DNA of 64,000 nucleotides from the NCBI RefSeq assembly GCF_007859075.1, contig NZ_VOAK01000011.1, forward strand, positions 620,001 through 684,000, in the 5' to 3' direction. Source of the DNA: Gemmobacter aquaticus. GTDB taxonomy: Bacteria > Pseudomonadota > Alphaproteobacteria > Rhodobacterales > Rhodobacteraceae. This document shows positions 1,491 through 12,281 of this stretch, piece after piece. The translations under genes were made by a program, and so were the position numbers. A model generated the notes under the pieces. The model made no database searches and was not told the origin of the DNA. It was given only the letters and a program-made list of their open reading frames with translations. How positions within the stretch are numbered: position 1 is the first letter of the stretch; each line of letters starts with the position of its first letter.

Positions 1491-3377
1491 ATGGGAAGTT
1501 TCTCGAATCTGGCCGATATCAAGGCCATCGAGGCCGAGATGCCATGGGCAGATCGCGGCGCAGCACGCAGCATGCATGAATTCCTTGGCCGGGCCGCCAA
1601 GGCACATGGCGGTCGCAGTGCGGTGTCTTTCCAGCTGACATCTGATCCCACCGACAAGGGAGAGACCCTGACCTGGGCGCAGCTCTTTGCCCGTGTGACG
1701 CAATCGGCCAATCTGTTCCGCAGCCTCGGCGTTGGTGAAAAGGACGTGGTGGCCTATGTCCTGCCCAACTCGTCCGAGACTGTGCATGTGCTTCTGGGCG
1801 GGATGGTTGCGGGCATCGTGAACCCGATCAACCCTCTGCTCGACCCCGAACAGATCGGCGCCATCCTGCGCGAGACCAAGGCCAAGGTCGTGGTGACCCT
1901 TCGCGCCTTTCCCAAGACTGATCTTTCAGCCCGCGTGGCCGAGGCGCTGACCCATGCGCCCAATGTAAAGACGGTGCTTGAGATTGATCTTCTGCGCTAT
2001 CTGCATCCGCCCAAGAAATGGATCGCCCATTTCCTGCGGCCCAAGGGTGCGATCACCCATTCGGCCCGCGTTCTGAACTTCCGTGCAGAGGTTGAAAAGC
2101 AGCCCGCTGACCGGCTGACCTTTGCGGATACGACGGATGACCGGGTTGCCGCCTATTTCCACACCGGTGGCACGACCGGCATGCCCAAGGTCGCGCAGCA
2201 CAAGGTCTCGGGCATGGTCTACAACGGTTGGCTGGGCCATCGGCTGCTGTTCCGCGAAACCGATGTGGTGATCTGCCCGCTGCCTTTGTTCCACGTATTT
2301 GCGGTGTATCCGATCCTGATGTCGATGATCGCATCCGGCGCGCATGTGGTGTTTCCGACGCCCGCTGGCTATCGTGGCGAAGGGGTGTTCGACAATTTCT
2401 GGAAGCTGGTCGAGCGCTGGCGGGTGACCTACATGGTCACGGTACCCACGGCACTTGCCGCGCTGATGCAGCGCCCGGTCAATGCCGATGTCAGCTCGTT
2501 GCGCGGCGCCTTCTCGGGCTCGGCCCCGTTGCCGATCGAGCTGTTCAACCGCTTTGAAAAGGCGACTGGCGTGCAGATCGTCGAAGGCTACGGCCTGACC
2601 GAATGTACCTGCCTTGTGTCGGTCAACCCGCCAGACGGGGCCAAGAAGATCGGCTCTGTCGGCATTCCGTTCCCCTATACCCATGTCCGCATCCTGCACA
2701 CAAACGGCAATGGCGGCTTCCGGGAGTGTGCGGTGGACGAGATCGGCGAGATTTGCGTGGCCAATCCCGGCGTGTTCGAGGGATCGACTTATACCGAGGT
2801 CGACAAGAACCATAAGCTCTTTGCCGAGGATCGCTACCTGCGGACCGGAGATCTGGGGCGTATCGACGCCGACGGTTATCTCTACATCACCGGGCGGGCC
2901 AAGGATCTGATCATCCGGGGCGGCCACAACATCGACCCGGCGATGATCGAAGAGGCGCTGATGGGCCATCCGGCGGTGGGTTTTGTGGGCGCCATTGGCC
3001 AGCCCGATGCCCATGCGGGAGAGTTGCCCTGCGCCTATGTCGAGCTGGTCAAGGGGGCGACCGTATCCGTCGCCGAACTGGTGGAGTATGCGCGCGAGCA
3101 TATCCCCGAGCGCGCGGCGGTTCCCAAGCATATCGAGATCTTGTCGGAACTGCCGAAGACGGCGGTGGGCAAAGTGTTCAAACCCGACCTGCGCCGCAGC
3201 GCAATCTCCCGCGTGCTGAACGCCGAACTGGCCGAGGCGGGCCTTTCCGCCCGCGTGGTCGAGGTGGCCGAAGACAAGAAGCGCGGCCTTGTCGCACGCC
3301 TGGCGCCCAAGCAGGACGAGGCCAGCGTGCAGGCGCTGATGGGCAAGTTCACCACACAGTGGGACTGGAAGGCCTGA
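1491..3377 (+). CDS. AMP-forming acyl-CoA synthetase
   Basis: A 628-residue adenylate-forming enzyme that would activate a carboxylic acid with ATP and transfer it to CoA. It shows the AMP-binding P-loop TGGTTGMPK near residue 225, the 'GYGLTE' motif near 366, 'YLRTGDLG' near 450 and 'GGHNIDP' near 477, followed by the C-terminal lid with 'GKVFKPDLR', whose lysine is the usual catalytic one. I place the start at the ATG at 1491 because GGGAGG lies eight bases before it. An in-frame ATG 25 codons upstream has no such site. The acyl substrate cannot be read from sequence. Medium or long-chain fatty acids are likely from the overall type. The extreme 3' end is part of a tandem repeat, described separately. 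Confidence 0.9.
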   Translation: MGSFSNLADIKAIEAEMPWADRGAARSMHEFLGRAAKAHGGRSAVSFQLTSDPTDKGETLTWAQLFARVTQSANLFRSLGVGEKDVVAYVLPNSSETVHVLLGGMVAGIVNPINPLLDPEQIGAILRETKAKVVVTLRAFPKTDLSARVAEALTHAPNVKTVLEIDLLRYLHPPKKWIAHFLRPKGAITHSARVLNFRAEVEKQPADRLTFADTTDDRVAAYFHTGGTTGMPKVAQHKVSGMVYNGWLGHRLLFRETDVVICPLPLFHVFAVYPILMSMIASGAHVVFPTPAGYRGEGVFDNFWKLVERWRVTYMVTVPTALAALMQRPVNADVSSLRGAFSGSAPLPIELFNRFEKATGVQIVEGYGLTECTCLVSVNPPDGAKKIGSVGIPFPYTHVRILHTNGNGGFRECAVDEIGEICVANPGVFEGSTYTEVDKNHKLFAEDRYLRTGDLGRIDADGYLYITGRAKDLIIRGGHNIDPAMIEEALMGHPAVGFVGAIGQPDAHAGELPCAYVELVKGATVSVAELVEYAREHIPERAAVPKHIEILSELPKTAVGKVFKPDLRRSAISRVLNAELAEAGLSARVVEVAEDKKRGLVARLAPKQDEASVQALMGKFTTQWDWKA

Positions 3378-3411
3378 GGGACTGGAAGGCCTGAGGGAGT
3401 GGAAGGCCTGA
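3361..3411 (+). repeat. Three tandem copies of a 17-bp unit ending an ORF
   Basis: The unit GGGACTGGAAGGCCTGA occurs at 3361-3377, 3378-3394 and 3395-3411. The third copy has one change (C to G at its fifth base). The first copy is the end of the acyl-CoA synthetase gene, coding for W-K-A-stop. The other two copies lie outside the gene, and the last one supplies the left arm of the terminator hairpin. Confidence 0.95.
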
Positions 3412-3421
3412 CGGGCCTTCC
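3401..3421. terminator. Hairpin between convergent acyl-CoA synthetase and dtd genes
   Basis: GGAAGGCC (3401-3408) pairs perfectly with GGCCTTCC (3414-3421) around a five-base loop. It lies between two converging genes and could serve both. No T run follows on either strand, so efficiency is uncertain. Confidence 0.5.
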
Positions 3422-3430
3422 CGACCCGCT

Positions 3431-3871
3431 TCAGCCGGCGGTGTCCATCCAGATGGTCACCGGCCCTTGGTTGACAAGTTCCACATCCATATCGGCGCCA
3501 AAGATGCCGTTCGCGGTCGCCAAGCCTTCGGCTGCGATCCGCGCGGTGAAGTATTCATAGAGCCGCTTGCCTTCATCCGGGGCGGCGGCAGTCGAAAAGC
3601 CGGGGCGGTTGCCGCGCAGGTCGGCGGCGAGGGTGAACTGGCTGACGATCAGGCAAGCACCACCGATATCCTTGACGGACCGGTTCATCTTGCCAGCCTC
3701 GTCCTTGAAGATACGCAACTTTGCGATCTTGGCGGCCAACTGATCGGCCTGAGCCTCGGTGTCGCCCTGCATGGCGCAGACGAGGATCATCAGACCCTCG
3801 CCAATCTCGCCGGTGATCTTCCCGTCAACCGTGACCTTTGCGCGTGAAACGCGCTGGACAACGGCCTTCAA
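3431..3871 (-). CDS. dtd: D-aminoacyl-tRNA deacylase
   Basis: A DTD-family proofreading enzyme that removes D-amino acids (and glycine from tRNA-Ala) mischarged onto tRNA. It carries both active-site motifs, 'SQFTL' in the middle and the Gly-cisPro motif 'NQGPVT' near the C-terminus. The best start is TTG at 3871: it gives the family's N-terminus 'MKAVVQRV', has GGAGG eight bases upstream, and overlaps the stop of the preceding kinase gene as TTGA. A GTG five codons earlier would contain this GGAGG inside the coding sequence and add five atypical residues. Length from TTG is 146 residues, normal for the family. Likely translated by coupling with the upstream kinase. Confidence 0.93.
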
Positions 3872-6468: not shown

Positions 6469-6531
6469 GGGGGGCTGTCTGCCCCGCGTTGCCTGCGGCA
6501 ACGCCCCCCGAGGATATTTGGAAAAGGAAAG
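6469..6531 (-). terminator. Structured terminator-like element with GAGGATATTTGG motif
   Basis: Ten bases after the stop of the zinc-ribbon gene (minus strand) lies a motif that reads GAGGATATTTGG ... AAGGAAAG on the plus strand (6510-6531). It is followed in transcription order by a perfect 8-bp hairpin with a 3-base loop (6486-6504) enclosed by six G-C pairs (6469-6474 with 6504-6509). A very similar motif lies after rluB at 12252-12281. Position and structure suggest termination or 3'-end protection. Confidence 0.5.
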
Positions 6532-6540
6532 CGGCAGCGG

Positions 6541-7638
6541 TCAGCGCATCAGGCCCTTCTCGTTGGCATAGGCGAAGGCCGCAGCAAGGGCGAGCGCGCA
6601 GAGGATGGCGAAGGCGATCTTCCAGACGCTGTAGGGCCGCTCCCCCTGCACCCGACCGGTTTGTCCATTGACGACAAAGCGGTAGGTACGACCGTTGTAC
6701 TTGTAGGCGGCCATCCAGATCGGCAGCAGGACATGCTTGAACGTCTCGGCTGAATATTCGGTGTCGATCCGCTGGATGCGCTGCACATCGCCACCGATGG
6801 CGCGGCGCACATCATAGGCGATCACGCCCGACATCTCTTGCTGGGCGCGGGCCCAGCCCTCCTCAAGCCCGACAGTATAGCCCTCGGCCGTGAAGCCCGA
6901 GAGATAGTCGGCGCGATAGGGCTTCAGCGCCGCCAGATCCCAGGGGGCAAGGGCATCGGTGTACTGGCGTGGCAGCGACTGCGAGGCCAGCACCAGCACG
7001 TCGTCAAAGGCCCGCTTCACCCAACCGCGCGCGGCTGACCAGCGGGTTTTTTGCACCTGCTGCTGGCGCCGTTTGCCATCGATGACAACCGTTTCGGTGA
7101 CATAGTAGTGGTCGCCCCGCTCACCCACATAGGACGACCGGGTGGCCGCGTCGAAGGTCCAGTAGGGGACGTAGAGACCATTCATCGCGCGCCCCTTGCG
7201 GGCAAACTCCACCAGCCCGTTTGGCGCAAACCACAGGCTGCCCAGCCAGTTGGTCATCGCGCGCCGGGCCGTGCGCTCGTCCAGCGCAAAGGGCAACACC
7301 GCCTGCGGCTTGATCTGCCGGTTGGTGCCGGTGCCTGCGACGACCGGCGTTGCGCAAAAGGGACATTCGGTGGCGTGGGTCGCATCGGCGAACTCGACCA
7401 GTGCGCCGCAACTGGGGCAACGCGTGGTGCGCACCTCTTCCATCGCCCCGGGGGGGAGTGCGTCGCGCAGCGCGCGGTGCAGGTCCTGCTCGCCCAGAAC
7501 AAGGCTACGGGCCTCGGGCGCTGCGGGGATGTCTTGCTCGTGCCCGCAGTGGTCGCAGACCATGTGGGTCTGGCCCGGGGCGTAGCGAAGATCAGCCCCG
7601 CAAGACGCGCAGGGGAAGTGGCGTTCGGCAAGTGCCAA
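6541..7638 (-). CDS. Double zinc-ribbon protein with C-terminal membrane helix (YdjG-like)
   Basis: About 365 residues with two CxxC...CxxC zinc ribbons: Cys10/13/28/31 and Cys74/77/92/95. A long domain of unknown fold follows, with the conserved 'YVPYWTFDA' stretch. One transmembrane helix sits near the C-terminus ('AFAILCALALAAAFAY'). Proteins of this kind are often mislabelled 'primosomal protein N' or 'helicase', but no helicase motif is present. Bacillus YdjG, which works beside the SPFH protein YdjI and PspA at the membrane, is the nearest characterised parallel known to me. The start is taken as TTG 7638, seven bases after GGGGG. It directly follows the SPFH gene, whose stop is at 7641, so the pair is probably coupled. 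A CTG at 7644 is an alternative start. Confidence 0.8.
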   Translation of the reverse strand: MALAERHFPCASCGADLRYAPGQTHMVCDHCGHEQDIPAAPEARSLVLGEQDLHRALRDALPPGAMEEVRTTRCPSCGALVEFADATHATECPFCATPVVAGTGTNRQIKPQAVLPFALDERTARRAMTNWLGSLWFAPNGLVEFARKGRAMNGLYVPYWTFDAATRSSYVGERGDHYYVTETVVIDGKRRQQQVQKTRWSAARGWVKRAFDDVLVLASQSLPRQYTDALAPWDLAALKPYRADYLSGFTAEGYTVGLEEGWARAQQEMSGVIAYDVRRAIGGDVQRIQRIDTEYSAETFKHVLLPIWMAAYKYNGRTYRFVVNGQTGRVQGERPYSVWKIAFAILCALALAAAFAYANEKGLMR

Positions 7639-7640
7639 GA

Positions 7641-8732
7641 TCAGGCCCCCGGTGGCGGCGGCGGCACCTGGGCGAAAAGCCGAGCAAGCTCTGTCTCGGC
7701 GGCGGGCTTCCACCCTTCCATGCCGGCGGTCCAGACAAGGCTGCCACGCGTCAGGGCGCCGGATTGTGCCAATGCCTGCAGGTCAGACTCGGCATATGGC
7801 CCCTTGGTCGCGCCGCCCTCGGCCAGATGCCACTGGCGCGATGCGGGCGGAGGCGGTGGGGGGGTTGCTGGCGACGCCCCCCAGGGGCCAGAAGGCTGCA
7901 TCTGCTGGGCCATGCCCATACCGATCCCCGCGCCAAGCCCTGCGCCCACGGCGCCGCCCACGGCTGATCCGGGCACGGTCATACCTTCGGCTGCGTTGAA
8001 CTGCATGTATTTGTTCAGATCGCCCACGATGCCCATCGAGGTTCGCTTGTCGAGCACCTTCTCCACCTCTTCGGGAAGCGAGACGTTCTCGATATAGAAC
8101 TCGGGCAGCACCAGCCCGTATTCCGCGATCTTGGGTGCGATGGCCGTGGAGATCAACTTTGCCAGATCGGCGGTATTGGCTGCCATATCCAGCACCGGGA
8201 TGCCGGACGAGGCAAGAACGCGGCTCATTTCCTGCACGATCACGTTGCGGATCTGAAAGCTGACCTCATCGGCGGTGAATTCGCCATCCGTTCCGACGAT
8301 TTCGCGCAGGAAGACACCGGGATCGGAGACGCGCATCGAATAGGTGCCAAAGGCGCGCAGACGTACCGGACCGAATTCCGGGTCGCGGCACATGATCGGG
8401 TTCTTGGTGCCCCATTTCAGGTCGTTGAACCGCGTCGTGTTTACGAAATAGATCTCGGACTTGAATGGAGAATTGAAGCCGTGGTCCCAGTGCTGCAACG
8501 TTGTCAGTACCGGCATGTTGTTGGTTTCCAGCATGTAAAGGCCGGGGGCAAAGACGTCGGCCAGTTGTCCTTCGTGGACAAAAACTGCGGCCTGGCCTTC
8601 ACGCACCGTCAGCTTGGCGCCGTATTTGATCGCCTGGCCGCGACGTTCAAACCGCCAGACCATCGTGTCGCGCGTGTCATCAAGCCAACTGATGACATCA
8701 ATGAATTCGCCCTTGAGGAAATCGAAAACCAT
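7641..8732 (-). CDS. SPFH-domain protein with C-terminal GYF_2 domain (YdjI-like)
   Basis: A 363-residue protein of the group sometimes called 'virion core protein-like', which is an SPFH (stomatin/flotillin-type) family. The SPFH domain fills about residues 15-260. A glycine-rich linker follows, then an Ala/Pro-rich hinge with 'TPPPPPP'. The last 60 residues form a GYF_2 domain ('WHLAEGGATKGPYAESDLQAL', with 'GSLVWTAGMEGWKPA'). SPFH proteins oligomerise at membranes and scaffold partners, and GYF_2 domains bind proline-rich ligands. The start at ATG 8732 is preceded by AAAGG. A TTG five codons earlier is possible. The next gene downstream encodes its usual partner, a zinc-ribbon membrane protein. 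Confidence 0.85.
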   Translation of the reverse strand: MVFDFLKGEFIDVISWLDDTRDTMVWRFERRGQAIKYGAKLTVREGQAAVFVHEGQLADVFAPGLYMLETNNMPVLTTLQHWDHGFNSPFKSEIYFVNTTRFNDLKWGTKNPIMCRDPEFGPVRLRAFGTYSMRVSDPGVFLREIVGTDGEFTADEVSFQIRNVIVQEMSRVLASSGIPVLDMAANTADLAKLISTAIAPKIAEYGLVLPEFYIENVSLPEEVEKVLDKRTSMGIVGDLNKYMQFNAAEGMTVPGSAVGGAVGAGLGAGIGMGMAQQMQPSGPWGASPATPPPPPPASRQWHLAEGGATKGPYAESDLQALAQSGALTRGSLVWTAGMEGWKPAAETELARLFAQVPPPPPGA

Positions 8733-8753
8733 GGCAAGGCCTTTCAATCGCGA

Positions 8754-8770
8754 GGCGCCAGAGTGGCGCT
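8754..8770 (-). other. Hairpin in the SPFH leader
   Basis: GGCGCCA (8754-8760) pairs with TGGCGCT (8764-8770) around three bases, just upstream of the SPFH start. It may attenuate read-through from the lipoprotein gene or shield the messenger. No T run is present. Confidence 0.3.
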
Positions 8771-8862
8771 GGAAAAGGCGGAACCACCCGCCCGAATGAG
8801 GTTACCATACCCGAGGTGACACGGGTTTGAAGCGGGTTTTCTGCGCCCCGGTTCACGCATGA

Positions 8863-9807
8863 TCAGCTCTCGCCCCCGATCAGATCGGTGGCCAGCTGAT
8901 GTGCGACCGGGCGGGCCTCGGTCGCGGTCATTCCGGCCTTCAATGCGGGGTCATAGAGCATGCGGAGCATAAGTTCGTCCTGCCGGGTCAGCAGGGCAAA
9001 TTCCTCGTCGTCGTTAAAGATCGACGGGCGTGCAAGCGGGCTGTCATTTGCAAGACCAAGCCCTTGCGCAAGCTCTTCATGCAGGCAGGAGAGGCGCAGA
9101 AGATCAGGATGTTCGGCGCGGATCACCGCGATCGCGCGCGAGTAGCTGTAGGAGCCCGCGTTCGACAGTGCATAGACGACGCAATAGGTGGAGCGAGGCA
9201 GGTTGACGAGGCCCGCCACCTCGGCCGGTGACAGCGAAGGCATCCGGGCAGAGATGACCGGTCCCATGGCGCGGCGCTCGTCCTCGGATACGACCTCGAT
9301 CCAGAAGTTCGGGTCGCTGTCGACCACGCTGATCGGATGCCGTGTCGCGGCTGCAAGTCGCGCAAGGTAAGACTTGATCCGCGCCCGATCGGTCTCGCGC
9401 GTGTCCGGTGGAACCGACGGCCCAAAGGTGACCTGCACCCGAACAGGCTGTTCCCATCGCCGCAGATGGCTTTGGGTCTGTTGTGCGACCAGCCCTGTGG
9501 GGCTGCGCTTGTATTCATCGAAGAGTGCGACCCGGATGAAGTTCTCGGCCAGCATCGTGTCGGTGAAGGGCGCGTCGCGCCCGCCGCCATCCGTGCGGAG
9601 CAAGCCCTGGGACAGAAGGTCGGCCTGCACCTTTGCATAGTAGTCTGCAAGGGCCTGACTTTCCGCCGAACGCGGGGACGGCGCCGGCGGTTGGGCCGCA
9701 GGCTCTGGCAGATCGACCTTTGGAGGCGGTGGCGGCGTGGCAACGCAGCCGCCGACCAGAATGGCCAGCGCCAACGCCGAGAAACGGGCCATTCCGGTCA
9801 GGTGCAT
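8863..9807 (-). CDS. DUF2927 lipoprotein
   Basis: A 314-residue predicted lipoprotein. Residues 6-21 form a hydrophobic signal with lipobox 'LVGGC', followed by a proline-rich tether of about 25 residues. The globular part carries the DUF2927 pattern, including 'ELAQGLGLANDSP', 'SIFNDDEEFALLTRQDE' and a conserved acidic C-terminus. An HE pair within 'CLHEELAQGLGL' resembles a metallopeptidase helix (HExxx), but no further metal ligands are evident, so enzymatic activity is unproven. A second methionine at 9792 is an equally good start. The gene lies between telA and the SPFH gene in the same direction, so its product may be the outer-envelope component of that set. DUF2927 proteins also occur elsewhere without these neighbours. 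Confidence 0.85.
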   Translation of the reverse strand: MHLTGMARFSALALAILVGGCVATPPPPPKVDLPEPAAQPPAPSPRSAESQALADYYAKVQADLLSQGLLRTDGGGRDAPFTDTMLAENFIRVALFDEYKRSPTGLVAQQTQSHLRRWEQPVRVQVTFGPSVPPDTRETDRARIKSYLARLAAATRHPISVVDSDPNFWIEVVSEDERRAMGPVISARMPSLSPAEVAGLVNLPRSTYCVVYALSNAGSYSYSRAIAVIRAEHPDLLRLSCLHEELAQGLGLANDSPLARPSIFNDDEEFALLTRQDELMLRMLYDPALKAGMTATEARPVAHQLATDLIGGES

Positions 9808-9816
9808 TGCGTACCG

Positions 9817-11004
9817 TCAGCCTGCCGCCGTACCGGCCACGGTGCCCACGCCATCCTTGCGTGCCTTGGCCGAGGCCAGCGTGTCGCGCAGCTCATGCTC
9901 CATCTTCTCGAGATCCGCCTCGGCGGCGGCGCGCTTGGCCTTGCCCTCATCGGCAATGGCAAGGCTTTCGTTGATGGTGGCGATCAGCGTCGCGTTGGCC
10001 TGCTTCACCGCCTCGATGTCAAAAACGCCGCGCTCCATTTCGGTTCGGATCACGCGGTTCGTCTCTTGCAGATTCTTGGCGTTGGCGGTCAGAAGCTCGT
10101 TCGTCAGGTCGTTGGCTTCCTTGATCGAGGTCGCCGCCTCGCGCGAGCGCTGGATGGTGACAGCCTGTGCAAGCTGGGTTTCCCACAGCGGCACGGTGTT
10201 CACCAGCGTCGAGTTGATCTTGGTGACCAGGGACTTGTCGTTCTCCTGAACCAGCCGGATCGAGGGCAGCGACTGCATCGTGACCTGACGCGTCAGTTTC
10301 AGGTCATGCACCCGGCGTTCCAGATCGTCGCGTGCCGACCGCAGGTCGCGCAGGGCCTGCGCGCGCAGAACCTGATCGGCCTCGGGTGCTGCGGCAACCT
10401 CGGCTTCCAGCGCGGGGATGTCCTTGGCATCAAGCTCGGCCAGCTTGGCCTCGCCCGCGGCAATATAGACCGCAAGTTCATTGTAGAAATCGAGGGTCTT
10501 CAGATAGAGCTGGTCCAGCGCCTTGATGTCGATCAGCAGCTTGTGCTGGTGCTTGTCGAGATCCGCCGTCACCCGGTCAATCTGGCCCTGCACCTCTTCG
10601 TATTTGGCGACAAATGAGGCAAAGGGCGCGGCGCGGCCCAGAAGTCGCTCCCACCAGCTACGCTCGCGCCGCACGTCAAGCTCTGACACCGTGAAGCCAC
10701 GCAGGGTAGAGACGATGCCGCGCAGTGCATCGCCTGCGGGGCCTACATCCTTGTTTTTGACATCGGCGAGCATCTGCTGCGAGATGACCTGAAGCTCGGC
10801 CTGTGCGCTCGACCCGAAAGAGATGATTGACTGGGTATTGCCCATGTCGATCTCAGCCATACGCTTGCGGATCGCGTCCGCTTCGGGGGCAGGGGCGGCG
10901 GTCAGAGGGACCACCTCAGAGGCCGGGGGCGGCAGGATCACCGCGTTCAGCTGTTCCACCTCGGCGAGTGCGGCGGCGGCTTCCTTGCGGACGGCTTCGG
11001 ACAT
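9817..11004 (-). CDS. telA: TelA-like toxic anion resistance protein
   Basis: A 395-residue, largely helical soluble protein of the TelA/KlaA family. It shows the family's features: 'ISFGSSAQAELQVISQQML' near residue 55, a 'GFTVSELDVRRERSWWERLLGR' stretch, a long coiled-coil centre and the conserved 'LPSIRLVQENDKSLV' segment. Family members were named for tellurite resistance and also affect tolerance of colicins, antibiotics and phages. The biochemical role is unknown. The start is taken at ATG 11004 with GGAG nine bases upstream. A TTG six codons earlier also fits. The gene follows the XpaC-like gene with an 82-base gap. TelA and XpaC genes are commonly adjacent in bacteria, which supports a shared function. 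Confidence 0.9.
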   Translation of the reverse strand: MSEAVRKEAAAALAEVEQLNAVILPPPASEVVPLTAAPAPEADAIRKRMAEIDMGNTQSIISFGSSAQAELQVISQQMLADVKNKDVGPAGDALRGIVSTLRGFTVSELDVRRERSWWERLLGRAAPFASFVAKYEEVQGQIDRVTADLDKHQHKLLIDIKALDQLYLKTLDFYNELAVYIAAGEAKLAELDAKDIPALEAEVAAAPEADQVLRAQALRDLRSARDDLERRVHDLKLTRQVTMQSLPSIRLVQENDKSLVTKINSTLVNTVPLWETQLAQAVTIQRSREAATSIKEANDLTNELLTANAKNLQETNRVIRTEMERGVFDIEAVKQANATLIATINESLAIADEGKAKRAAAEADLEKMEHELRDTLASAKARKDGVGTVAGTAAG

Positions 11005-11044
11005 GGGCAACAACTCCGTCAAATGGCCTTGCGGCGGGATGGGC

Positions 11045-11059
11045 TCCGGTCAGACCGGA
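11045..11059 (-). other. Hairpin between the xpaC-like gene and telA
   Basis: TCCGGT (11045-11050) pairs with ACCGGA (11054-11059) around CAG in the 82-base gap. It could stabilise or attenuate the messenger. Nothing else is evident in this gap. Confidence 0.3.
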
Positions 11060-11086
11060 CGACAATGGCGACCCCGATGGGTCAGG

Positions 11087-11992
11087 TCAGATTTCCGGGG
11101 TTTCGTATTTGAGCCGCTCGCGCAGCACCTGAATTTCGATGTCGAGCGCGCCCGCGTCATTGCTGAGCAATTGCTGGCTGCGGGCGGCGAAGCGTGTCTG
11201 CAGATCGTCAAGCAGCGCCTCGTAATCGGCGCGTGCCTTGGGGTCGCGGTTCTGGGCGTAAAGGTCGGCAAAGCGGACCGTAGCGTCGCGTGCGCCCTCC
11301 AGATAGATGCCCAGATACTTGCGGGCGGCCGAAAGGTCGCCCGGATCTTCCTCGATCCGACGGAATAGCTGGCGGGCGGATACGGCGAACCGTTCAACCC
11401 GCGCCTCAAGCCCGCGGTCGCGGGCGCGCAGTATCGCGTCCTTCATGCCTGCAAGGTGCGCCTCGGCATCATCGACGGCGCGGGCGACCCGGTCGGCCTG
11501 AAAACCGTCGATCCCCGTTGCGCCCTTGTCGCGCAATGGATCGAGCCCAAAGGCCCCCATGTGCAGGAAGGCGCCCAGCAGGCCGAAAAGGACCGCATAC
11601 AACGGGGTGCCGGTCGACATCATGCCGGCCATGCCAAGCCCGCATCCTGCGGCGACCGAGCCAAAGATCTTGCGGGGGATCGCGGGGCGCTTGGAAACCT
11701 TGCGCAGGTCATAGGCCGCCTCGGCCTTCAGCCCTTCACGCGTCAGCAGGCCAGACCCCAGAAGAAGCGCCGCCCCACCCATGCCCCAGGCAAGGCCGAC
11801 CGGGTCGGACATGAAACCTGCCACCGCCGGGAAAACAGCGGCGAGGAACAGCATGTTCGACCGGGCCCCTGCCTTGGCCGGACGTTTGCCATCAAAGAGG
11901 TTCGGAGGCTGGCCGGCGGACGGTGGGGCGGGCGGATGGTCGCGGCCAACCTCACCCGTCGGGGAATACTTGCCGCCAAAGCGTTGCGCCAT
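11087..11992 (-). CDS. XpaC-like membrane protein (5-bromo-4-chloroindolyl phosphate hydrolysis family)
   Basis: About 301 residues. The N-terminal 45 residues are polar and proline-rich. Two hydrophobic segments follow at about 46-85 and two more at about 105-145, then a soluble helical C-terminal half with 'ARRAVDDAEAHL'-like amphipathic helices. This pattern matches the XpaC family, named from a Bacillus gene linked to X-phos hydrolysis but with no proven enzyme activity. XpaC and TelA are frequent genomic partners and appear in proposed tellurium and envelope-stress gene sets. The start at ATG 11992 lies two bases after the stop of a 27-codon ORF, so translation is probably coupled. The same frame remains open far upstream, but that region lacks coding character. 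Confidence 0.8.
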   Translation of the reverse strand: MAQRFGGKYSPTGEVGRDHPPAPPSAGQPPNLFDGKRPAKAGARSNMLFLAAVFPAVAGFMSDPVGLAWGMGGAALLLGSGLLTREGLKAEAAYDLRKVSKRPAIPRKIFGSVAAGCGLGMAGMMSTGTPLYAVLFGLLGAFLHMGAFGLDPLRDKGATGIDGFQADRVARAVDDAEAHLAGMKDAILRARDRGLEARVERFAVSARQLFRRIEEDPGDLSAARKYLGIYLEGARDATVRFADLYAQNRDPKARADYEALLDDLQTRFAARSQQLLSNDAGALDIEIQVLRERLKYETPEI

Positions 11993-11994
11993 GG

Positions 11995-12078
11995 TCAGAG
12001 CCCCCCGCCGAACGAGGCATAGATCACCAGCGCGAAAAAGGCCGCGAAGCTCAGGGATTGCAGGGCAGATGCGGGCAT
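11995..12078 (-). CDS. 27-residue membrane microprotein heading the xpaC-telA set
   Basis: ATG at 12078 follows GGAGG by four bases. The frame runs 27 codons to TGA at 11995 and ends two bases before the xpaC-like start. The product, beginning MPASALQSLSFAAFFALVIY, is one predicted transmembrane helix with a short glycine-rich tail. The ribosome site, hydrophobic product and tight junction with the next gene favour a real small protein or a coupling leader over chance. I know of no family for it. Ribosome profiling or conservation of the frame among relatives would decide. Confidence 0.6.
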   Translation of the reverse strand: MPASALQSLSFAAFFALVIYASFGGGL

Positions 12079-12212
12079 CGGTCCTCCGGTTGCTGCGGCC
12101 AACTGGCCTTGCGCGATGAACTATAGGTGAGGCGATCCCGCCCCGCCAGAGGGAGAAATGCTGAAAAATGCAGCGAAATCTGTTGCAAGCCAGTTTTCGG
12201 CACAAAGCGGGC

Positions 12213-12281
12213 AGGGGGCGCTCGCGCCCCCTCTGGGCCATGCGGCCCATTCACCCCCTGAGGATATTTGGGAAAGGAAAG
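12213..12281 (-). terminator. Structured terminator-like element after rluB, same motif as 6469-6531
   Basis: Fourteen bases after the rluB stop (minus strand) is the motif GAGGATATTTGG ... AAGGAAAG (12260-12281, plus-strand reading). In transcription order it is followed by a GGGCC/GGCCC hairpin (12235-12248) and a perfect nine-base stem AGGGGGCGC/GCGCCCCCT (12213-12232). Together with the copy at 6469-6531 it forms a repeated class of gene-end element. Confidence 0.55.

Follow-up and report, generated by a model that had tools for sequence, protein, structure and literature searches.

The window analysed here is a stretch of 64,000 nucleotides from Gemmobacter aquaticus (contig NZ_VOAK01000011.1), and our subject is an operon within it that joins an XpaC-TelA gene pair to genes for an SPFH protein and a double zinc-ribbon (ZnR) membrane protein. 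A sequence-only reading of this DNA had described six minus-strand genes in one direction with gaps of up to about 130 bases, and all six open reading frames (ORFs) are indeed present, on the minus strand only, with gaps of 2, 82, 9, 130 and 2 bases from the first gene to the last. In reading order they are:

12078-11995, minus strand: ORF for a 27-residue, single-helix microprotein, coupled to XpaC
11992-11087, minus strand: XpaC-like membrane protein (PF10112, 5e-23)
11004-9817, minus strand: TelA (PF05816, 4e-106), predicted to form a long helical hairpin
9807-8863, minus strand: putative DUF2927 lipoprotein (PF11150, 3e-64), a predicted pseudo-metzincin
8732-7641, minus strand: SPFH (Band_7_1) protein with a C-terminal GYF_2 domain and PPP tail (PF13421, 7e-103; PF14237, 3e-16)
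7638-6541, minus strand: double zinc-ribbon protein with a C-terminal hydrophobic helix (TTG start)

The PF10112 gene thus lies directly ahead of the PF05816 gene. None of the five larger proteins exceeds an NCBIfam cut-off or matches the TPM domain of the YdjH type, and the zinc-ribbon protein of the window falls below every Pfam cut-off; four CxxC motifs are nevertheless shared by 84 of 90 ZnR proteins in one set and 56 of 58 in another, and a hydrophobic helix at the C-terminus by 89 of 90 and 54 of 58. By sequence, XpaC has no solved relative and TelA no convincing one (best E 0.28).

The gene set is constant among relatives. We sampled 101 genomes from the order, all of them listed as one family (Rhodobacteraceae), and found a TelA match in 100 (full-length in 99, degenerate in one, G085), with one genome lacking a match. 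Family counts of gene order refer to the 98 relatives' loci with full TelA, the window excluded; a locus with only the degenerate match (L135) and a weak second hit (L161) were dropped. XpaC, TelA, DUF2927, SPFH and ZnR genes follow one another in that order on one strand at 76 of the 98 loci, so that the joining of the two gene pairs proposed in the sequence-only reading proved to be mostly constant. Twelve further loci carry the first four genes only, five of them ending at a contig end, and three lack DUF2927 alone. Distances of at most 200 bases separate XpaC from TelA in 92 of 93 relatives and TelA from DUF2927 in 95 of 95. The operon is therefore part of the core genome and not a patchy island.

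Upstream of XpaC, an ORF for 24-31 residues with one hydrophobic helix is coupled to the XpaC gene at 92 of 94 family loci, the window included. Its end lies at -8 to +9 bases from the XpaC start, and its stop codon overlaps the start codon by one base in 45 of the 92. The same filter passed few ORFs upstream of the other genes (TelA 3/104, SPFH 0/101, DUF2927 0/96, ZnR 2/87); shuffled DNA passed it in 50 of 490 cases, so that chance alone could account for about one pass in ten loci. Two family loci (L072 and L078) failed, as did three of four loci outside the family (L163-L165; L162 passed). Across the family microproteins, one alignment column holds F or Y in 93 of 93 and another L in 90 of 93. 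The ratio of non-synonymous to synonymous substitution rates is weak evidence for coding (median 0.73 on less saturated pairs), so the case for the ORF is carried by positional conservation and the controls. Six peptides that were scanned gave no Pfam or NCBIfam match, in searches where hmmscan has low power at such length. No hydrophobic microORF was seen before xpaC in the one Bacillus record examined. Judged by its conserved position, the microprotein is a previously missed part of the operon and begins it.

The core of the operon reaches well beyond the family. A class-wide sample of 241 genomes gave TelA above cut-off in 22, PF10112 in 15, DUF2927 in 35 and strong Band_7_1 (defined as >200 bits) in 12, and four loci from outside the family (L162-L165) carry XpaC, TelA, SPFH and ZnR genes with no DUF2927 match between them. 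We also surveyed named genomes, in which at least 585 SPFH relatives were confirmed, and kept the best 80; they were ordered by how close each came to a single SPFH protein from Alphaproteobacteria, and fractions of them are not population frequencies. TelA lies upstream of the SPFH gene on the same strand at 42 of these 80 loci, 39 of which have XpaC too. According to record titles and labels on the tree, the 42 comprise 13 Alphaproteobacteria, 17 Gammaproteobacteria (including Thiothrix, Granulosicoccus and Leucothrix), 9 Campylobacterota (including Sulfurovum and Sulfurimonas) and 3 of unresolved affiliation, most being metagenome bins. With a looser filter, a microORF was recovered before XpaC in 34 of 38 loci with XpaC and TelA among these best 80, and before TelA, SPFH and ZnR in 1 of 42, 5 of 80 and 3 of 61; at least five of the automatic picks were unconvincing by eye (L206, L207, L225, L263 and L278). 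The four-gene core XpaC-TelA-SPFH-ZnR is found in three classes that belong to two phyla.

On a quick SPFH tree (92 rows; of 88 inner branches 36 were starred and 27 left open), linkage to TelA amounts to 3 changes over 83 scored rows, and with the TelA rows treated as one of three groups there are 5 changes, where shuffling gives 30.1 on average. Hence the join is old or has arisen few times, on a tree that cannot separate gain from loss of the linkage. Where TelA and strong Band_7_1 are unlinked they still co-occur, in 3 of 4 genomes compared with 11 of 229 (Fisher p 7e-4, from hand-read counts).

DUF2927 is found at only 9 of the best 80 named loci, all in Alphaproteobacteria, two of which carry two tandem copies (L205 and L219). 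Whether the gene set is restricted to close relatives, a point raised when the locus was first described, thus has a divided answer: the core extends to Gammaproteobacteria and Campylobacterota, and the five-gene set with DUF2927 was seen in Alphaproteobacteria only. On this distribution of sequences, DUF2927 is an alphaproteobacterial addition to the conserved core. Its predicted structure adopts the catalytic-domain fold of matrix metalloproteases (matrixins, metzincins), with identities of 10-16% among the matches shown; by sequence there is no convincing solved relative (E 0.2). Matrixins bind zinc through an HExxHxxGxxH motif. At this site 94 of 96 family proteins read EE..Q..G..ND (EExxQxxGxxN), and DUF2927 is predicted to be a pseudoprotease. 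A distant DUF2927 relative (L198, G260:C52) has the zinc-type motif HEMMHAMGLIGHH there.

The SPFH protein carries its own candidate ligand. GYF domains bind proline-rich peptides, and the sequence-only reading had named the tails of the XpaC-like and DUF2927 proteins as likely GYF_2 partners. PPP occurs anywhere in only 5 of 97 family XpaC and 35 of 96 DUF2927 proteins (TelA 5/100, ZnR 16/84), compared with 93 of 97 family SPFH proteins and 75 of the 80 best named ones that have it in their final 25 residues; a contact between GYF_2 and the tail of another SPFH protomer is therefore the better guess. The DUF2927 lipoprotein would also be a poor ligand because it would sit across the membrane. 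A pattern for the GYF domain proved too strict to serve as a count (5 of 97 in the family, even though Pfam finds the domain in the window). The GYF part matches one chain of an Adventurous gliding motility protein X (E 0.0017). PF13421, the SPFH family of the window protein, also matches in B. subtilis, which served as a control.

In Bacillus, membrane foci of the band-7 protein YdjI and of PspA require YdjG and YdjH (PMC8581546; this and the other PMC sources cited below are given from the part of each text that was available). Two surveys of phage-shock-protein (Psp) systems place YdjG, a zinc-ribbon membrane protein, beside a band-7 protein, and TelA goes unmentioned in the available text of either (PMC11237479, PMC9239133). 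Resemblance to this arrangement had led the sequence-only reading to connect the SPFH and zinc-ribbon proteins with PspA, a partner that turned out not to be required: PspA (PF04012) is present in 38 of the 101 family genomes and missing from 63, namely the window genome and 62 of the 100 others. Since the window genome has no PspA, its SPFH and zinc-ribbon proteins cannot depend on it there. In the 38 genomes that have it, PspA is nowhere adjacent to the operon, the nearest copy lying about 21 kb away.

In our judgement it is an evenly balanced proposition that the products of this chromosomal operon form a machine for inner-membrane stress which works independently of PspA and has TelA and XpaC as its effector. 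The zinc-ribbon protein would tether the soluble SPFH protein at the membrane, the part that YdjG and YdjH play for YdjI in Bacillus, and SPFH protomers would build a scaffold, possibly by way of GYF_2 domains gripping the PPP tails of neighbouring protomers. TelA, with its long hairpin, would be the cytoplasmic effector: with the membrane protein XpaC as its dock, it would take the position on this scaffold that PspA has in Bacillus. The microprotein may be a small subunit or regulator of XpaC, matched to it in output by translational coupling, and the predicted DUF2927 pseudoprotease could act beyond the inner membrane, sensing or binding peptides or damaged proteins. Together they would make the cell tolerant of membrane-active compounds and tellurite. 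A wider proposal, that TelA, XpaC and the microprotein replace PspA on the SPFH-zinc-ribbon scaffold in Alphaproteobacteria, Gammaproteobacteria and Campylobacterota as a second phage-shock-like system, with the pseudoprotease as outer sensor in Rhodobacterales and near kin, is in our view less likely than not.

Analogy with Bacillus favours an envelope function, which makes the membrane-stress side of the original description (a membrane-stress or defence module) the best reading: the XpaC-TelA and SPFH-zinc-ribbon pairs of Bacillus both belong to the sigma-W regulon (PMC3498285), and XpaC-like genes have been linked to bacteriocin and daptomycin responses (PMC7864038). Several observations weigh against a machine of this kind. 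The predicted TelA model is of middling quality (predicted local distance difference test score 72, predicted template modelling score 0.55), and a Foldseek search with it returned generic helical bundles, the best at E 0.02 and none significant, with neither PspA nor Vipp1 named among the 50 matches shown; replacement of PspA by TelA is therefore an argument from genomic context alone. Both PspA and TelA are held by 38 of the 101 genomes. The alphaproteobacterial microproteins and those of other classes show no clear common origin: cross-class profiles score barely above shuffled peptides, with 6 of 19 hand-picked peptides and 5 of 92 above the shuffled 95th percentile. Within the family, XpaC alone is missing at 3 of the 98 loci and 3 further loci are more reduced, ZnR is inverted and ahead of the other genes at L141, and 7 relatives have no ZnR match despite room for one. 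DUF2927 and SPFH lie within 200 bases in only 73 of 93 relatives, and SPFH and ZnR in only 42 of 82, so the back half of the operon looks looser than the front. Some relatives also have extra ORFs between operon genes, and with these and the wide gaps a single transcript in relatives is not assured. Among the best 80 named loci, 24 have SPFH and ZnR without TelA and 14 have SPFH alone, some of the latter ending at a contig end.

Some of these points would fit two independent stress pairs that are neighbours by old adjacency and form no physical complex, an alternative that we consider rather unlikely. It draws on the 24 named loci with SPFH and ZnR and no TelA, on several class loci with TelA and no SPFH nearby, on the 40 of 82 relatives in which SPFH and ZnR are more than 200 bases apart, and on the separate operons of Bacillus, as described in the available sources. 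Against it stand co-linearity across two phyla with few changes on the tree, and the co-occurrence of TelA and SPFH where they are unlinked.

'Tellurite resistance' has been the label of TelA and XpaC since the 1990s, and the operon could be a toxic-anion resistance operon in which these two proteins limit damage directly with the SPFH and zinc-ribbon proteins as helpers; we think this unlikely. TelA relatives occur on 596 plasmid records, and one of the 30 matches listed was annotated KlaB, tellurium resistance; telA of R. sphaeroides figures among listed tellurite determinants (PMC6955997). Near-universal presence in the family is more in keeping with a general need than with a rare anion, however, and a Listeria TelA insertion is described as 4-fold more sensitive to nisin and only 2-fold more sensitive to tellurite (cited within PMC12791056). 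Sigma-W control of the Bacillus pairs likewise points to the envelope. TelA relatives were also found in 80 phage records, for example in the 469-kb Sinorhizobium phage PV764938.1 (358117-359175, 41% identity).

A machine that positions envelope synthesis rather than sensing stress, as an accessory of the cell wall or elongasome, seems decidedly improbable to us. At L162, a locus from a non-family alphaproteobacterium, a RodA/FtsW-like gene (identified by eye, 3300-3850) ends just ahead of the operon, which directly follows it, and when YdjG or YdjH is lost, wall synthesis under alkali is misplaced (PMC8581546). L162 is the one locus where a RodA-like neighbour came to notice, with no search made elsewhere; a pseudouridine synthase gene takes that position in the window and in five named loci of the family group. 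Last, an anti-phage or colicin defence module, for which one may count the use that phages evidently have for TelA and its relationship to the kil/tel genes of RK2, is the defence half of the original description and was dropped as very improbable: at E 0.001 PADLOC matches none of the five larger proteins (the lowest value, 0.0081, belongs to a TniQ model on the zinc ribbon), and the core-genome distribution, fixed gene order and housekeeping neighbours argue against it.

Those neighbours are a SAICAR synthetase gene downstream and pseudouridine synthase and deaminase genes upstream; clustering of flanking genes returned mostly shadow ORFs. Three further features flank the operon:

12123..12162, minus strand: candidate promoter/operator element, a weak local copy of CTTCCCCCTAGCA-N12-AT-N2-CCTA
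12254..12275, minus strand: exact copy of a genome-wide repeat, TTTCC.AAATATCCTC.GGGGG, at the 3' end of the pseudouridine synthase gene; upstream bound
6504..6525, minus strand: second copy of the repeat with 1 mismatch, just past the ZnR gene; downstream bound

The two-block element (CTTCCCCCTAGCA, with CCTA 16 bases on) was picked up in 35 of the 92 upstream regions from the family, that of the window among them, at a distance of 64-106 bases ahead of the microORF. Shuffled controls gave 0.7 per 92, a flattering comparison since training and scoring of the matrix used the same sequences. Exact copies occur in 7 of 14 genomes searched whole, genomes chosen mostly because their loci showed the element, one copy in each and all at the XpaC-TelA operon. 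Allowing one mismatch adds the operon in 5 more genomes and yields 8 hits elsewhere, compared with 10 for the reversed pattern. This suggests a dedicated promoter or operator and not a large regulon.

The repeat is found at 62 places in the window genome with at most 2 mismatches, and its reversed pattern at none. About ten inverted pairs of it lie 49-58 bases apart, as if marking gene ends. The structured terminator that the sequence-only reading had placed at the end of the operon was dropped: a scan of the operon 3' end for intrinsic terminators found none, folding of that stretch is no stronger than in shuffled sequence (z -0.43), and a copy of the genome-wide repeat stands there instead. 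Rfam gave no structured RNA in the window at gathering scores.

Variants were seen at individual loci. A tandem XpaC-like pair precedes telA at L275 and L279 and at six family loci (L083, L099, L103, L104, L112 and L141). At 20 family loci, similar ORFs separate SPFH and ZnR (for example L073, 9246-10013, with TelA oriented plus), the longest of them cytochrome-b-like by eye. Mostly desulfobacterial loci (L204, L212, L224, L226 and L240-L242) have a different zinc-ribbon protein after SPFH/GYF_2, replacing ZnR. At two class loci, L178 and L179, an SPFH protein away from TelA has a SHOCT-like tail where the operon protein has GYF_2.

To our knowledge TelA and XpaC are widespread and have no known mechanism. 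Tying them to an SPFH-zinc-ribbon scaffold yields a concrete hypothesis, that of a PspA-free membrane-stress complex, which is testable in marine and photosynthetic bacteria. It also brings in a microprotein that annotation had missed and a putative pseudoprotease that had been left as a DUF. A 2012 review reportedly covers Ter and Tel gene neighbourhoods and could describe part of the operon. Among the papers listed we found no published description of the joined operon, and no literature on DUF2927, in a search outside which most subscription papers lay.

Four known systems invite comparison. Like pspA-ydjGHI of Bacillus subtilis, which according to the available sources acts in envelope stress, the operon pairs a Band-7 (SPFH) protein with a neighbouring membrane protein that carries two zinc ribbons, the likeness of ZnR to YdjG being one of zinc-ribbon architecture. 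Unlike pspA-ydjGHI, it has neither PspA nor a TPM protein (YdjH), it includes TelA and XpaC, and its SPFH protein ends in GYF_2 and a PPP tail. Unlike matrix metalloproteases, DUF2927 has its zinc ligands replaced. The telA locus of R. sphaeroides, from the same bacterial group and with the same gene, is presumably the very operon of the window. The available text cites it as a tellurite determinant and gives no operon-wide or microprotein description (PMC6955997). The closest parallel to the front half is Bacillus xpaC-yaaN, with Listeria lmo1966-lmo1967, where an XpaC-like gene of the same family stands directly before TelA, the Bacillus TelA being 37.7% identical to that of the window; unrelated genes follow the Bacillus pair, whereas here a microprotein precedes XpaC, and SPFH and ZnR follow TelA with DUF2927 inserted.

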